From the NCBI GenBank assembly GCA_944362615.1, contig CALVTM010000002.1:124001-188000 (forward strand): a stretch of 64,000 nt of DNA. Reading direction: 5' to 3'. The position numbers were made by a program, and so were the translations under genes. How positions within the stretch are numbered: position 1 is the stretch's first letter; each line of letters begins with the position of its first letter. Positions 3,193-8,924 of the stretch are shown here, one piece after another. This DNA is from an uncultured Clostridia bacterium (GTDB lineage Bacteria; Bacillota; Clostridia; Christensenellales; Pumilibacteraceae). A model generated the notes under the pieces. It had not been told where the DNA came from. It saw only the letters and a program-made list of their open reading frames with translations, and did no database searches.

Positions 3193-3933
3193 TTAAATCA
3201 AATATCCGCCGCTAACATTGAATGTCTGTCCTGTGATATACGAGGAGCAATCATCCGCAAGAAAATATACCGCACATGCCACGTCATGAGGCGCACCCAA
3301 CCTGCCAAGAGGAATTTCAGATATTATATCATTCAATTCCATTTCGCTGAACCGTGCCAGCATGTCCGTTTTTATTGCTCCCGGAGCTACCGCATTAACG
3401 CGTACTCCGCTCGGAGCAAGCTCTTTTGCCATAGCGCGCGTAAACGCGATAACGCCCGCTTTAGCCGCGGAGTATACCGATTCCATACTTGCGCCGCATA
3501 TGCCCCACACCGACGACACATTGACTATACAGCCGTCATGACCGAAAGCAAAGTCATCATAAAAAGCCTTTGTCGCAAAAATAGCGGACATCAGATTATC
3601 CGAAACAGAGCGCCTGATCTCTGTTTCGGAAAAATCCGCAAGCGTCCCATATTCGCAGCTGCCGGCATTATTTATCAGAGCGTGCACTCTTCCGCATTTT
3701 TCAAGAACGCGCGTTCTGAGCGCGTTTGCGCCCGTCATATCGCATAAATCCGCATACACGGCAAACGCATCTCCACCTGCCGCATTCAGCTCATCCGCAA
3801 GCGCAAACGCCGCTTCTTCGCTGTTACGATAGCCTATGGCTACCGTCCAGCCACGCAAGCAAAATAGGCGCGATATTGCCGCGCCTATGCCTTTCGCGCC
3901 GCCTGTAACGACGACGGTTTTTTTATCACACAT
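3193..3933 (-). CDS. SDR-family NAD(P)-dependent oxidoreductase (FabG-like)
   Basis: Short-chain dehydrogenase/reductase with the complete family signature: the cofactor loop TGGAKGIG, NNAG, a catalytic Ser in NVSS, YSAAK as the Tyr-Lys pair, and a C-terminal GQTFNVSGG. It resembles 3-oxoacyl-ACP reductase, but the substrate cannot be read from sequence; no other fatty acid synthesis genes are adjacent. The start at MCDKK overlaps the murF stop (ATGTGTGA), implying translational coupling. An upstream in-frame ATG at 3957 would add eight residues and is less likely. Last gene of the FMN-riboswitch operon. Confidence 0.85.
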   Translation of the reverse strand: MCDKKTVVVTGGAKGIGAAISRLFCLRGWTVAIGYRNSEEAAFALADELNAAGGDAFAVYADLCDMTGANALRTRVLEKCGRVHALINNAGSCEYGTLADFSETEIRRSVSDNLMSAIFATKAFYDDFAFGHDGCIVNVSSVWGICGASMESVYSAAKAGVIAFTRAMAKELAPSGVRVNAVAPGAIKTDMLARFSEMELNDIISEIPLGRLGAPHDVACAVYFLADDCSSYITGQTFNVSGGYLI

Positions 3934-5521
3934 AATTGTCCGGTAAATCATTTTCAAACAATATCACACTGTTATCCGGCAGATCTGAAAGATATTTTTT
4001 TGCTATATCAAGCGAACCTGCCGTCTTTATCATGTGTTCGGGCATACCGTTTTCCAGCGCTCCCTTTTTGATCGTTTTGGCTCTGCTGCCGACAAGTATC
4101 GCTATGTCGCACCCTTCGGCTATATGCTTTCCGAGTTCGCTGTTTGCATCGTTCTCCAATCCGCCAAGCTCTACCATACCGGGAGTCACGATAACTTTCA
4201 GTCCCTCAAAACACCCGAGCACTTCTATCGCGTTTGCAGCACCATTTGGATTTGAATTGTATGAATCGTCTATTATTATCTTGTTTCCGGAGCGGAGCAC
4301 ATCCAGGCGGTGCTCAACCGGCGTAAGCTTCTCACACGCTTTAGCACACTCGGCGACCGATACCCCAAGATCGACCGCAACCGCCATACATGCGCAAATC
4401 AGAGCAGGAATATGCCGTCCGAGCAGCTTCGTATATACGCTTACTTTCTCGTTACCTTTTATAACGTCAAACCTTGTTCCGTCTGCAGAAAACCGCATAT
4501 TTTCAAAACGGATATCACAAGCCGCATCACTTCCGGTTAATAATTTACGTCCCTTACAGCGTTCCGAAAGCTTACGCGCACCTTCATCTGCACAGTTGAA
4601 TACTGAAAGCCCGCCTTTGCTCAATGCTTCCACCAGTTCGTATTTGGTATCCGCTATCGCATCAAGAGAACCGAATGTTTCAAAATGCTGACATCCGATA
4701 CCGGTAATCAGCGCATAGTCCGGCTCTGCTACACTGCATATTTCAGCTATGTCACCTCTGCGTCTTGCGCCCATTTCCGCAATCAGAACGCTGTCGTCCT
4801 CATCAAGCACATCATTTATCGTTCTGCAGATACCAAGCGGTGTATTATAGCTCTTAGGCGTTGCGCACACACGGCATACTCCCGAAAGCATTACGGACAG
4901 TATATTCTTTGCCGTCGTCTTACCGTAACTGCCGGTTATCCCGACTACTTTAAGACCGTTCGTCTTGAGTTTACGCATTTCATCGGACGCATCCTTCATA
5001 AATGATTTAGCGGAAGCTCTCTCAAAAGGATATGTCACAAAATACGATATAGCTGCCATGAGCGGTATAAGTACCGGAAGAATTGCATATCCGCATTCAT
5101 ACATCTGCGTATATTCGCAAAGCGCCCATCCGCCTACACTGAATGCCATACAAACCACAGTCTGAGTCAGGATCAATCTTCTCATCCGCGGCGTTATCGC
5201 AAGCGGTACTTTCGCCTTTTTTGCAAAGCATACGGCAATGAATATTATACCGAACAGTATATATATCAGAAAAGAAAAATAATGTAATCCTTCTTCCCAA
5301 TTTGCCGGAAAGCAAAAACGGAATAACAGCATAAAAGCAGCCGTTATAAACGAGCACGTAAAATAACGAAGGATATAATCAAAGTGAGACGCTTTAATCC
5401 AGTTTACAACTCCCCTGAAACGGTATGAAGATAACTGGTACATATGAAGCATTTTCAAACTTGACAGAGTCAGCAGCGTCGTCGAAAAGAATATAAAAAT
5501 TATGTCGAGTGCTGTGTCCAT
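3926..5521 (-). CDS. murF: Membrane-anchored Mur ligase (MurF-like)
   Basis: Likely adds D-Ala-D-Ala to the UDP-MurNAc-tripeptide in peptidoglycan precursor synthesis. Residues 1-165 hold about five hydrophobic helices instead of the usual soluble MurF UDP-binding domain. The ATP-grasping Mur ligase core follows, with the P-loop GITGSYGKTT (194-203), the central NSNP motif in DDSYNSNPNG, and a C-terminal domain ending FENDLPDNYV. Length 531. It overlaps the hydrolase gene upstream and the SDR gene downstream. MurF is the best fit to me, but ligases with N-terminal membrane domains could use other substrates, and no second murF is visible in this window. Confidence 0.75.
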   Translation of the reverse strand: MDTALDIIFIFFSTTLLTLSSLKMLHMYQLSSYRFRGVVNWIKASHFDYILRYFTCSFITAAFMLLFRFCFPANWEEGLHYFSFLIYILFGIIFIAVCFAKKAKVPLAITPRMRRLILTQTVVCMAFSVGGWALCEYTQMYECGYAILPVLIPLMAAISYFVTYPFERASAKSFMKDASDEMRKLKTNGLKVVGITGSYGKTTAKNILSVMLSGVCRVCATPKSYNTPLGICRTINDVLDEDDSVLIAEMGARRRGDIAEICSVAEPDYALITGIGCQHFETFGSLDAIADTKYELVEALSKGGLSVFNCADEGARKLSERCKGRKLLTGSDAACDIRFENMRFSADGTRFDVIKGNEKVSVYTKLLGRHIPALICACMAVAVDLGVSVAECAKACEKLTPVEHRLDVLRSGNKIIIDDSYNSNPNGAANAIEVLGCFEGLKVIVTPGMVELGGLENDANSELGKHIAEGCDIAILVGSRAKTIKKGALENGMPEHMIKTAGSLDIAKKYLSDLPDNSVILFENDLPDNYV

Positions 5522-6123
5522 TTTTCTATACTGCCCGCAAGCGCTGTCACAAAAGCTGCGTGATCTTCAGCGTATGCGAAATGCCCTCCTTTGATCAGAA
5601 TGACTTCAGCGCCGCGTATGCGACGTTTCATTACTCCGCACATATACATCGGCGTTTCTCTGTCTTCTTTACCCCATATAAGTACGGTCGGACATCGAAT
5701 GTCTCCGAGCTTATCTGTCAGATCCAGGGATACGACTCTGGAAAATATGCCGCGCATATTCTCCGGCAGCGCAAGCCAATCCGGCGAGTAATATTTACTT
5801 ACGTCCAGACCTTTACGCTTATCATGCAGAAATCGTCTGTGACGCAACCGGTACAGCAATCCTCTTCTGGGCTTTACTCCGGCAGCCGATACAAGCGCAA
5901 GTCCTGCAACACGGTCGCTTCCGGACGCTATATCTATAGCAACGCGACCGCCAAAGCTATGTCCTACTAATATTACATTACCTAAGCCGTATTTGTCAAG
6001 CAGGGTAAGCGTTAATGCCGAATAATCGTGGAGCCCCCAGTTTTTGGGCGGCATTCCCGACTCCCCGAATGGTGGGAATGAGAACGAAAAACACGTTCTG
6101 CCGCGAAGAGAAAAATATTCCAT
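5500..6123 (-). CDS. Alpha/beta hydrolase; N-terminus probably extends upstream
   Basis: Serine hydrolase of the alpha/beta fold: nucleophile elbow VGHSFGG, acid in WGKEDRETP, and histidine in KGGHFAY. The first ATG (6123) gives 207 residues but omits the conserved oxyanion-loop motif. The same frame continues open upstream and encodes IVFLHGWGGD directly before this Met, back to a stop near 6286, without any ATG, GTG or TTG. A strong AAGGAG lies at 6241-6246, so translation probably begins around 6232-6237 at a non-standard codon, or the sequence carries an error. The 3' end overlaps murF by 22 bases. Substrate unknown. Confidence 0.75.
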   Translation of the reverse strand: MEYFSLRGRTCFSFSFPPFGESGMPPKNWGLHDYSALTLTLLDKYGLGNVILVGHSFGGRVAIDIASGSDRVAGLALVSAAGVKPRRGLLYRLRHRRFLHDKRKGLDVSKYYSPDWLALPENMRGIFSRVVSLDLTDKLGDIRCPTVLIWGKEDRETPMYMCGVMKRRIRGAEVILIKGGHFAYAEDHAAFVTALAGSIEKWTQHST

Positions 6124-6233
6124 AGCACCGCCGAACGACCTTACATCGCCGCCCCAGCCGTGCAGAAATACTATGGGAATTCCGCCGCCGAAACGAATAT
6201 CCGTTTCTACGTTCAGCCCGTAAACCTGTTCCG

Positions 6234-6647
6234 TTATACGCTCCTTCGCGTCATCACATATGCCGACGCGTCGCCGTAGTACCCCTTACGCACACCGGCT
6301 ATCTCAAAACCGCATGACTTATACAGCGCTATTGCAGGGGCATTGTGTTCGTTTACTTCCAGATAATAGTACGCCGCATTCCCGGACATGCCGGCACTCA
6401 TCAGCGCTTTCCCTATTCCTCTTCCTCTGAATTCAGCACTGACGGCTATTGATGATATACAGCATTCGTCAAGCACGTTTTCGGCTATAACGTATCCGCA
6501 TATCCCGCCGTCCTCATATACAAATATATCCGTACTGTCTGAAGAAAATGCACAGAGTATCTGTTCGTCTGTCCACACCGGTCTGACGCATTGTCCCATG
6601 ATTTGGGTCACTGCCGCGATATCGCTTTCAGACGCCCGCCTTATCAC
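6234..6647 (-). CDS. rimI: Ribosomal protein S18-alanine N-acetyltransferase (RimI-type GNAT)
   Basis: GNAT-fold acetyltransferase with the acetyl-CoA loop in EFRGRGIGKAL and the RimI-like segments YYLEVNEHNAPAIALYKSCGF and RKGYY. RimI acetylates the N-terminus of ribosomal protein S18, and its place beside tsaB and tsaE is the standard Firmicutes arrangement. I chose the GTG at 6647 because GGAGA sits seven bases upstream and the protein then starts VIRRASESD, as family members do; the GTG at 6665 would add six residues. It overlaps the tsaB end by 20 bases. Confidence 0.88.
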   Translation of the reverse strand: MIRRASESDIAAVTQIMGQCVRPVWTDEQILCAFSSDSTDIFVYEDGGICGYVIAENVLDECCISSIAVSAEFRGRGIGKALMSAGMSGNAAYYYLEVNEHNAPAIALYKSCGFEIAGVRKGYYGDASAYVMTRRSV

Positions 6648-7281
6648 TCTTTTTCTCCAGGTCACGCTCCGCCTGCGGCTTTCTGATATACAGCGGCTGC
6701 AACTCGTTGCCGTTTACGGCATCGTTTATATGGCTTTCAACGACCTCTGCAAAAGCCTTACCGCAATCTTCAGGACAACGCGCGCCTATCTCGTCCGCAA
6801 CGCGGCTGTCCGCGACAAGGGCATAAGGTTCGTCTATCTCCGCTATGAATGCAGAAAGTTCATCACGATCCAGCGCCTTGGGAGAAAGAAGCTCGTGCAT
6901 ACAGCCATCATATACCGCTACATAACGCATACCGTTCGACGCATCGCATACGGATACTATCGTATCTTCGCCCTTACAGTTATATGCAAGCAGCTCAAGC
7001 GCAGTTACTCCTATGACCGGTTTGTTGCATACATACGCAAAAGCCTTTATCGTAGCCATGCCTATTCTTATGCCCGTGAATGATCCCGGTCCGGTCACAC
7101 ATGCAAAAAAGTCCATATCAGACAGTTTTGCACCGCTGCGCCTGAGAAGTGCGTCAACTTCGGGCATGAGTTTTACGGACGCCGCCGTGAAATCATTACA
7201 TTGAAAATACTCGTAACTGCCGTTATGGCATACGAGTACTTTAAGTGATTCGGAAGCCGTGTCTATTGCTAGGTAGTTCAT
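6628..7281 (-). CDS. tsaB: tRNA t6A37 threonylcarbamoyl transfer complex protein TsaB
   Basis: TsaB is the ASKHA-fold scaffold that, with TsaD and TsaE, transfers threonylcarbamoyl-AMP to A37 of ANN-decoding tRNAs. Diagnostic features are the N-terminal LAIDTASES and the GPGSFTGIRIGMA segment. Length 217 is usual. The ATG overlaps the stop of yhbY (ATGA type). The tsaE domain is two genes upstream; tsaD is not in the window. Confidence 0.93.
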   Translation of the reverse strand: MNYLAIDTASESLKVLVCHNGSYEYFQCNDFTAASVKLMPEVDALLRRSGAKLSDMDFFACVTGPGSFTGIRIGMATIKAFAYVCNKPVIGVTALELLAYNCKGEDTIVSVCDASNGMRYVAVYDGCMHELLSPKALDRDELSAFIAEIDEPYALVADSRVADEIGARCPEDCGKAFAEVVESHINDAVNGNELQPLYIRKPQAERDLEKKSDKAGV

Positions 7282-7571
7282 AATTCTATGTGTTTGACCC
7301 CCTCTTTTCTGCTGTACCTGTAAAGGATTATTTTATTACCTATGCGGCAGACCGCTTCCGCTTTGAGCTTCATTTCAAGCAGTCGCATAAGATCATCCGC
7401 ATCATAATCGCAGTTTTTAAGCACGGATATTTTAATAAGTTCGCGGGCAGTCAACGCGCTGTCAAGACCTTCGAGAAGATTGTCTGAAACAGCTCCCTTT
7501 CCGATCATGAAGATCGCCGGAGACGTCGCCGCTATTGATTTCAGCTTTGATCTTTGTTTACTGGTCAGCAT
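7278..7571 (-). CDS. yhbY: CRM-domain RNA-binding protein YhbY
   Basis: A 97-residue single CRS1/YhbY (CRM) domain with the family's GKGAVSDNLLEGLDSAL segment (GxxG RNA-binding loop) and LTARELIKI. In other bacteria it associates with pre-50S ribosomal subunits. It overlaps the 3' end of the ribU-tsaE gene by 14 bases and the start of tsaB by 4, so it is coupled into the operon. Confidence 0.9.
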   Translation of the reverse strand: MLTSKQRSKLKSIAATSPAIFMIGKGAVSDNLLEGLDSALTARELIKISVLKNCDYDADDLMRLLEMKLKAEAVCRIGNKIILYRYSRKEGVKHIEL

Positions 7572-8703
7572 TTATCGTGATTTCCCTTTCACTGTCGCCC
7601 GTGCGCAGTATAGTCACTTCTATGCGCTTTGAGGGCAGAATGTCTGAAATTTTTGAAGGCCACTCGATAAGGCATACGCAGGACTTATCGCCGAATCTTT
7701 CATTGATACCGCACGCCTCGGCTTCGGCGCCGCTGTTGAGACGGTATGCATCGATATGTATAAGACGCAGCTTATTACCTTCATACTCACAGCTCAGCGT
7801 AAAAGTAGGGCTCTTTACGTCCTCAGTCACTCCGAGAGCATCTGCCACACCTTTGGCAAATACCGTCTTTCCCGCACCGAGTTCGCCCGTTAAAAGTACG
7901 ACTTCGCCGCCTTTGAAATCGGATGCCAGCTTACGTGCAAGCGCCCTCGTTTCCTCTTCACTTCGAGTGATGATCTTCTGCATAAGATCATTATACACTT
8001 CTTTATCGGGATTTGCAACCGATTTACCCGAATTATCCGGGCATGCCGCCGCTTTATCGGATTTTTTTGTTTTGGCGCCTACGTTTCGGAACATCCATTT
8101 TATTGCTTTGGAAAGACGCTTGTAAAGAAGCAGAGTAAGGATACTGATGGATACGCCTTTTATTGCGTTGAATGCAATTATAAGCCAGAACGTACCGGCG
8201 AACATTTCCGCCGCCTGATCCTTCATATATAACGGATAATTTATATAGCGGTTACATATCAGGGATACGCATATCTGCACAACGCAACCTATACCCATGC
8301 CTGCTGCTACCCAAGGCAATCCTTTTTTGAATTTATAAAGTATGGAAGGCACTATCACAAACGACACTGTGACGAGAAAGTTTGCAAGCTGACCTACTCC
8401 TCCGGAAGTGGAAGTAAACAGACATAATAACTGTTTGACGCCTTCTATGACTATAGCTGCAACAGGTCCCAGCATGTATGCGCCGAGCATTGTAGCGACA
8501 TTGGAAAAGTCCATCTTCAGAAAAAATGCCGATGTCATCGGGAACATGCTGAACTCCAGAAAACTGAGAGCATAGCCGAGCGCCGCAAGTATTGCAAGCG
8601 TAGTTATACGCTGCGCGGTGAAGTACTGTCTTATGCCCCGCTTCGTTTCACCGGTTTCCGCATTCTTTTCAGAAACATTGACTTTGGTATGAGTTTTTTC
8701 CAT
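7558..8703 (-). CDS. tsaE: Fusion of a riboflavin ECF-transporter S component (RibU-like) and TsaE ATPase
   Basis: Residues 30-205 form a multi-helix membrane protein of the ECF S-component type (QRITTLAILAALGYALSFLEF near the N-terminus), which captures riboflavin for import by the shared EcfAA'T module. Residues 241-381 are a complete TsaE domain with Walker A GELGAGKT (273-280), SPTFTLSCEY and IHIDAYRL, needed for tRNA t6A synthesis. A polar linker at 208-240 joins them with no stop codon. The riboflavin assignment rests on the FMN riboswitch upstream. The start at 8703 has AAGGAGG at 8715-8721. An internal consensus promoter (7990-8018) ends just before Met241, so TsaE may also be made alone. 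Confidence 0.88.
   Translation of the reverse strand: MEKTHTKVNVSEKNAETGETKRGIRQYFTAQRITTLAILAALGYALSFLEFSMFPMTSAFFLKMDFSNVATMLGAYMLGPVAAIVIEGVKQLLCLFTSTSGGVGQLANFLVTVSFVIVPSILYKFKKGLPWVAAGMGIGCVVQICVSLICNRYINYPLYMKDQAAEMFAGTFWLIIAFNAIKGVSISILTLLLYKRLSKAIKWMFRNVGAKTKKSDKAAACPDNSGKSVANPDKEVYNDLMQKIITRSEEETRALARKLASDFKGGEVVLLTGELGAGKTVFAKGVADALGVTEDVKSPTFTLSCEYEGNKLRLIHIDAYRLNSGAEAEACGINERFGDKSCVCLIEWPSKISDILPSKRIEVTILRTGDSEREITINADQ
7990..8018 (-). promoter_or_regulatory. Candidate internal promoter for the TsaE domain
   Basis: On the minus strand TTGCAA and TATAAT are spaced by 17 bases. The predicted transcription start falls seven bases past the -10, on the A of the ATG coding for Met241 of the fusion protein. 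Transcription here would give a leaderless message for stand-alone TsaE. No strong ribosome binding site precedes this ATG. Confidence 0.5.
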
Positions 8704-8710
8704 AAAAACA

Positions 8711-8736
8711 ACCGCCTCCTTATATAAAGGGGCGGT
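8711..8736 (-). promoter_or_regulatory. Riboswitch expression platform: hairpin covering the ribosome binding site
   Basis: ACCGCCCCTT pairs with AAGGAGGCGGT, burying the only AAGGAGG before the ribU-tsaE ATG. The hairpin is followed by TTGTTTTT, so it could act both as a translation blocker and as a terminator when FMN is bound. Confidence 0.7.
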
Positions 8737-8774
8737 ATATATTCAGCACAAGAAAACTAACCGAACAAACGCTT

Positions 8775-8882
8775 TATAACATCCGGACTATACCGTCGGT
8801 CGGGGAATTTCACCCCGTCGGGCCTTTCGGCTTCGCGGACTTTTACCGCCGGTGGGGAATCTCGCCCCGCCCCTAAAGCTGT
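8775..8882 (-). ncRNA. FMN riboswitch (RFN element)
   Basis: Read on the minus strand, the conserved RFN blocks are present in order: AGGGGCGGGGCGAGATTCCC, ACCGGCGGTAAA, the AAGCCGAAAGGCC stem-loop, GTGAAATTCCCCGACC, and GACGGTATAGTCCGGATG. It lies between a consensus promoter and the RibU-like gene, the usual place for FMN control of riboflavin uptake. The whole downstream operon would share this control. Confidence 0.95.
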
Positions 8883-8895
8883 AATTGCGTTTATT

Positions 8896-8924
8896 ATATT
8901 AGTACACTTTATCCGTTATGTCAA
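8896..8924 (-). promoter_or_regulatory. Promoter of the riboswitch-led operon
   Basis: TTGACA, 17-base spacer, TAATAT on the minus strand, ending about 15 bases before the riboswitch. A 7-bp inverted repeat ATCCGTT/AACGGAT at 8911-8929 overlaps the -35 box. Confidence 0.85.

Follow-up and report, generated by a model that had tools for sequence, protein, structure and literature searches.

In the alr-groEL1 operon of M. tuberculosis, the genes tsaE-tsaB-rimI-tsaD lie behind an unrelated gene, and internal promoters are found in coding sequence, one of them within alr, upstream of tsaE (PMC5335608). Among bacterial genes transcribed without a leader, those described as TA-led have a -10-like TATAAT located approximately 12 bp upstream of the start codon (PMC3160421). 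The locus studied here appears to bring an internal promoter and a leaderless start together within a gene for a riboflavin transporter component fused to TsaE. It is encoded on a 64,000-nucleotide stretch (here, the window) of the genome of an uncultured bacterium belonging to a group of gut Clostridia (GCA_944362615.1, contig CALVTM010000002.1, positions 124,001 to 188,000). All of the single parts of the arrangement are of known kinds. As the first-pass annotation of this DNA had supposed, we found no description of a RibU-TsaE fusion in the literature searched, a weak negative result, as the coverage omits most subscription papers. The words fused, fusion, and YjeE are absent from the main text of a 2015 survey of riboflavin transporters (PMC4418817). 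The literature searched on internal promoters, leaderless genes, and fused genes contained no precedent for a leaderless promoter that is translated as a fusion linker.

The fused reading frame and its surroundings

The fused open reading frame (ORF) runs for 381 codons without a stop (8703..7558, minus strand). Pfam identifies an ECF transporter domain (ECF_trnsprt, PF12822) at residues 31-194 (8122..8613; 2.8e-20, above the cut-off) and a TsaE domain (PF02367) at residues 247-375 (1.6e-38), the latter matching profile positions 2-128 of 128. The TsaE part also scores 121.7 bits against TIGR00150 (cut-off, 60.1). Searched against the PDB, the N-terminal part retrieves RibU structures (3p5n, 1.7e-22) and, at E <= 0.01, no entries other than RibU; the C-terminal part matches the solved TsaE 5mvr (2.2e-32). 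The Walker A motif (GELGAGKT), SPTFT, and the C-terminal IEW align with solved TsaE, and the fold is whole. AlphaFold2 predicts two confident domains joined by a disordered linker (residues 209-241, pLDDT < 50). The polar linker proper covers residues 209-240 (7984..8079), and the TsaE fold is predicted to start at residue 241, which is a methionine (Met241). By match and by context, the RibU part is predicted to be a riboflavin-type ECF S component that binds riboflavin and takes part in its import, and the TsaE part is predicted to be a complete TsaE that works with TsaB and TsaD in t6A synthesis. A profile search of the genome recovered no second TsaE above the family cut-off. EcfT-type (CbiQ family) proteins are encoded elsewhere in the genome and no lumazine synthase was detected in it, and the organism thus probably relies on riboflavin import.

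Upstream of the fused ORF is an FMN riboswitch aptamer (RF00050; 8883..8767, minus strand), with 102.7 bits against a threshold of 66.2 (E value, 9.8e-23). Between the aptamer and the ORF is a predicted expression platform (8704..8736), consisting of the terminator-like hairpin ACCGCCCCUUUAUAUAAGGAGGCGGU and a U-rich tail (fold z, -3.3), which contains the ribU Shine-Dalgarno sequence AAGGAGG. Comparable hairpins that hold the Shine-Dalgarno sequence are predicted in five other species of the genus (L004, L005, L007, L008, and L011). The likely promoter of the riboswitch-ribU transcript is TTGACA-17-TAATAT (8896..8924, minus strand; 10/12 matches), which ends 13 nt ahead of the aptamer. This call rests mainly on position, because the consensus promoter scan was overall at chance level (10 found versus 11.4 expected) and is uninformative alone.

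Downstream, on the same strand, are genes for the RNA-binding CRM domain protein YhbY (7278..7571; PF01985, 2.3e-24), for TsaB, the partner of TsaE in t6A synthesis and the second gene after the fused ORF (6628..7281; TIGR03725, 3.8e-36), and for a RimI-like acetyltransferase (6234..6665; TIGR01575, 5.2e-23, slightly below its cut-off). These are followed by an alpha/beta hydrolase (5500..6240; PF12697, 7.7e-19), a MurF-like Mur ligase (3926..5521; PF08245, 1.9e-29, below the murF cut-off), and, as the last of the row, a short-chain dehydrogenase-like (SDR) gene (3193..3957), recognized from its ORF, its translation, and its same place in relatives. From yhbY onward, the genes overlap or almost abut. 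For the hydrolase, the open frame and homology (VFLHGWGG) reach upstream of the first ATG, GTG, or TTG; its start codon is uncertain, and a rare start codon is possible. A frameshift in this gene was rejected, as the frame continues without a stop up to 6240 at least. The row obg-nadD-rsfS-PAP2-ribU-tsaE-yhbY-tsaB-rimI-hydrolase-murF-SDR recurs within the genus, and the order ribU-tsaE-tsaB-rimI is kept in most relatives examined. Thus, the first-pass annotation correctly described the single frame with its complete TsaE and polar linker, the FMN riboswitch, and the genes downstream, but it missed the promoter and start codon in the linker (8018..7981) that are described below.

That annotation had also suggested a search for the same fusion in related genomes, and we find an in-frame ribU-tsaE junction in 11 genomes of the genus, including the one studied here. 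Eight of the others encode a full-length fused ORF, and in G001 and G013 the junction is in frame and the gene is cut by the contig end (in G012, the contig stops within ribU). The linkers of the 11 genomes have seven different lengths, every one a multiple of three (87 to 156 nt from the YKRLS motif to the internal ATG; 129 nt in L004), and none contains a stop codon. In a tree built from RibU plus TsaE at 69 loci, seven changes are required to explain the fused state, which indicates that the fusion arose or was lost repeatedly. Judged by these comparisons of sequence, the fusion is genuine and its frame is maintained across the genus. The sole out-of-frame member is G011 (L020, L059, and L113), in which the promoter is present and ribU reads through it to stop just past the overlapping tsaE start. 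This arrangement could be a precursor of the fusion or have arisen by its reversal; the fused protein is therefore not indispensable in the genus. Two observations on single genomes are recorded here. The tail of the fused ORF at the 3' contig end of L012 (G001:C101), RSEERRVGKECACQ, resembles a translated sequencing adapter and not TsaE, and L040 is Candidatus Protoclostridium gallicola, of the class Clostridia and the same genus.

A promoter-like sequence conserved within the linker

The linker DNA reads TTGCAA-17-TATAAT-6-ATG (8018..7981, minus strand). The candidate promoter (7990..8018) comprises a -35 box (TTGCAA, 8018-8013), 17 nt, and a -10 box (TATAAT, 7995-7990), and the ATG six bases further on is the codon of Met241. 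Both hexamers and the 17-nt spacing are unchanged in 11/11 fused genomes, although nearby residues vary (SVAN, SFAN, SLAK, and TLAK). Over the promoter, the codons are xTT GCA AAx ... GTG TAT AAT. Among the 125 columns with conserved residues in the 11 genomes, for which the commonest codon averages 63%, only K227, A230, V236, Y237, and N238 are encoded by a single codon in all genomes. The last four are promoter codons, and the codon for K227 is four bases upstream of the -35 box. The chance that exactly these five columns would be frozen is approximately 1 in 2x10^8 if columns are exchangeable (125 choose 5). As codons are frozen only in or beside the promoter, we conclude that this segment is conserved as DNA and not as protein. 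The case for a promoter rests on conservation, since the consensus scan and the count of TATAAT-N6-ATG within the window (2 found versus 0.91 expected) are uninformative alone; the -35 box agrees with the consensus at just 4/6 positions.

The sigma-70 -10 box occupies positions -12 to -7, and six bases between it and the ATG place +1 on the A of that codon. We infer that transcripts would start at the A of the Met241 ATG or next to it and that the linker promoter would give rise to a leaderless mRNA that is translated. The nested tsaE so defined (7558..7983, minus strand) would encode 141 residues, beginning at the start of the predicted fold and containing the matches to PF02367 and to solved TsaE. 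The sequence contains no Shine-Dalgarno motif at the usual spacing upstream of Met241.

A -10 box that places the predicted transcript start at the start codon is beyond chance at tsaE. In 14 genomes of the genus, we counted 79 occurrences of the pattern TTGCAA-N16-18-TATAAT-N5-8-ATG, compared to 0 in the reversed control, and six of its seven matches in the genome studied here start evident genes, tsaE included. On the 293-kb contig that carries the locus, occurrences of TATAAT peak exactly six bases before ATG (6, versus a background of approximately 1.1 per spacing); the leaderless statistics comprise this one contig and the pattern searches. With the last spacing widened to N5-9, the pattern is found at many genes (e.g., those for Lon and TilS-like, MnmA-like, and LepA-like proteins) in the 14 genomes and in G050 and G061-G064, again with 0 in the reversed control. 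Overall, leaderless mRNAs seem to be common in these Clostridia.

The ribU-tsaE junction in relatives

In unfused relatives, the same promoter sequence lies after the ribU stop and before tsaE, where it is untranslated. Promoter scores of <=3 were obtained for 36/49 unfused neighbours versus 4/2450 shuffles. In the G027 lineage, from the same family (L130), the spacer contains two in-frame TAG codons, and a TAA precedes TTGCAA by one base. A tsaE without an adjoining ribU may also have the promoter (L057, L073, and L086). Two other fused lineages retain a promoter and start codon at this point, with TTGCAA-17-TATAAT-6-ATG at the junction of L038 and TTGATT-17-TATACT-7-ATG or GTG at those of L026, L046, L047, and L050. 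In L038, the -10 box is six bases from the start codon, compared to 8 or 9 in its nearest relatives; with a spacing of 8, the TAA in TATAAT would be in frame with tsaE. In the fused L054, L066, L141 (G038), and L019 (G056), the search revealed no embedded tsaE promoter. An FMN riboswitch is present there, and TsaE may be under FMN control in these cases.

Strong hairpins (-17 to -25 kcal/mol, with z from about -4 to -8) enclose the tsaE -10 box in their loops at approximately 20 loci of unfused relatives, among them those of Candidatus Coproplasma and Candidatus Scatosoma. The right arm is the tsaE start, ATGGC, and is followed by a T-rich run. These hairpins, with an A-tract and a T-run, are located at the tsaE start, mostly right after ribU (L043, L044, L048, L053, L057, L058, L060-L062, L064, L065, L072-L075, L079, L084, L089, L094, and L150). 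The stem covaries, with 15 cells changed on both sides versus 4.7 in shuffles, and pairing is observed in 85% of cells versus 33-49% when the arms are slid; the hairpin is absent in 3/17 aligned loci (L041, L086, and L100). The dyad may be a DNA operator, but G-U pairs are frequent in the stem (columns 11-35, 13-33, and 15-31 of alignment A3), and we therefore prefer an RNA structure. The simplest reading of the RNA hairpin is a ribU terminator with the leaderless tsaE promoter in its loop, and transcripts started at the tsaE ATG would be without its left arm. In five such genomes, a screen of leaderless promoters of the TTGCAA type returned a similar hairpin at tsaE and at a single further gene (L190). 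In this latter case (G063), the loop of a perfect hairpin, ACGTACCCCTATGTTATAATAGGGGTATGTTTCACGT, encloses the -10 box, and the gene that follows encodes a 389-aa protein that is not TsaE.

Two probable products from one frame

We consider it likely that this single ORF is read from two promoters and yields two products, the fused RibU-TsaE and a free TsaE. The linker promoter would be the tsaE promoter of the ancestral state, in which it lay between two separate genes, ribU and tsaE. With loss of the ribU stop in the genus, the frame would have crossed this promoter, the bases of which would now double as linker codons. At low FMN, the riboswitch would be open and the long mRNA would give RibU-TsaE, in which a flexible tail would connect TsaE to a membrane-bound riboflavin-binding subunit; on this mRNA, the internal tsaE start would have no Shine-Dalgarno sequence. 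At any FMN level, polymerase would start at the linker promoter, and the leaderless mRNA would provide free TsaE and then YhbY, TsaB, RimI, and the rest. Probably, tsaE can still be activated alone at any level of riboflavin supply. As the linker promoter would be independent of the riboswitch, t6A synthesis and the downstream genes would be largely free of FMN control. Transcription from ahead of ribU could still add to the expression of tsaE and the genes that follow. The fused protein is predicted to be present in cells and may have a function there. The kept frame and repeated origin favour its importance, and the out-of-frame G011 and the completeness of free TsaE favour its dispensability; cells may simply tolerate the fused ORF without benefiting from it.

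The first-pass annotation saw a single riboswitch-controlled protein at the head of an operon, with FMN setting TsaE, t6A modification, and cell wall genes along with riboflavin uptake. The riboswitch, the one ORF, the tightly packed genes of the same strand, and the lack of a further TsaE above the cut-off in the genome are what such control would predict. Nevertheless, we consider it improbable, as the embedded promoter is conserved as DNA, is common to unfused relatives, and should act independently of the riboswitch, and it seems implausible that an essential enzyme would depend on a vitamin shortage. A second possibility is that the frame is open by accident. In this case, ribU would simply have lost its stop, free TsaE made from the internal promoter would be the only product of importance, and the fused protein would be a by-product or would undergo degradation or cleavage. 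In favour of this view, G011 is out of frame, TsaE from Met241 would be complete, and a linker predicted to be disordered would be easily cleaved. However, the fusions are of repeated origin, and seven linker lengths are in frame, with no stop, across 11 genomes. Shuffled linkers remain open with a probability of 0.16-0.60 per genome, for a product of 1.6e-6 if the genomes were independent, which they are not. Accidental opening is rather unlikely in our estimation.

The invariance of residues A230, V236, Y237, and N238 could instead suggest a protein motif (e.g., a cleavage site around VYN), with the conserved bases not being a promoter. We rejected this explanation, which we regard as very improbable, because the bases are also conserved in untranslated positions, both in unfused relatives and ahead of the ribU-less tsaE genes. 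Moreover, the codons are fixed too, unlike in the rest of the protein, and the -35 box persists even though the residues there vary. An assembly or frameshift artefact that joins two genes might be suspected, given that the genomes of the genus are drafts, apparently assembled from metagenomes. This too was rejected, and its probability is close to nil, as the junction is in frame in 11 genomes that derive from several assembly projects where the record named one.

Returning to two promoters and two products, a broader proposal, on which we are evenly divided, is that the ribU-tsaE junction is a convertible regulatory joint, in which the end of ribU is occupied by a leaderless tsaE promoter. 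The -10 box of some lineages would lie in the loop of the ribU terminator, with the tsaE start codon in the descending arm. In other lineages, the ribU frame would have been opened through the promoter on at least three independent occasions to create a dual-product gene, FMN deciding if membrane-tethered TsaE is added to the free one.

A riboswitch-led fused ORF need not mean fused regulation, as a coding linker can conceal the promoter of the partner. If so, the free TsaE would escape gene callers and operon predictors, and FMN control of t6A would be the wrong reading. The locus would be a clear example of double selection on the same bases, as promoter and as codons, with the unfused relatives representing the state before. 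It also offers a case, open to testing, in which the only effect of a riboswitch may be on the location of an essential enzyme.

Compared to known systems, the RibU part resembles RibU (YpaA) in its match to solved structures, in the upstream FMN riboswitch, and in the EcfT-type proteins of the genome, but here it bears a C-terminal TsaE. The TsaE part has the whole fold and the GELGAGKT, SPTFT, and IEW motifs of the known TsaE (YjeE) ATPase, and differs in that it would be tethered to a membrane protein when translated from the long mRNA. The alr-groEL1 operon of M. tuberculosis shares the tsaE-tsaB-rimI row and a promoter inside the preceding coding sequence. In contrast, it has no fusion and no riboswitch, and its authors state that leaderless architecture is completely absent (PMC5335608). 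The position of the -10-like box matches the published signature of TA-led leaderless genes (PMC3160421), whereas the promoter here is inside an in-frame upstream ORF and hence would also be translated.
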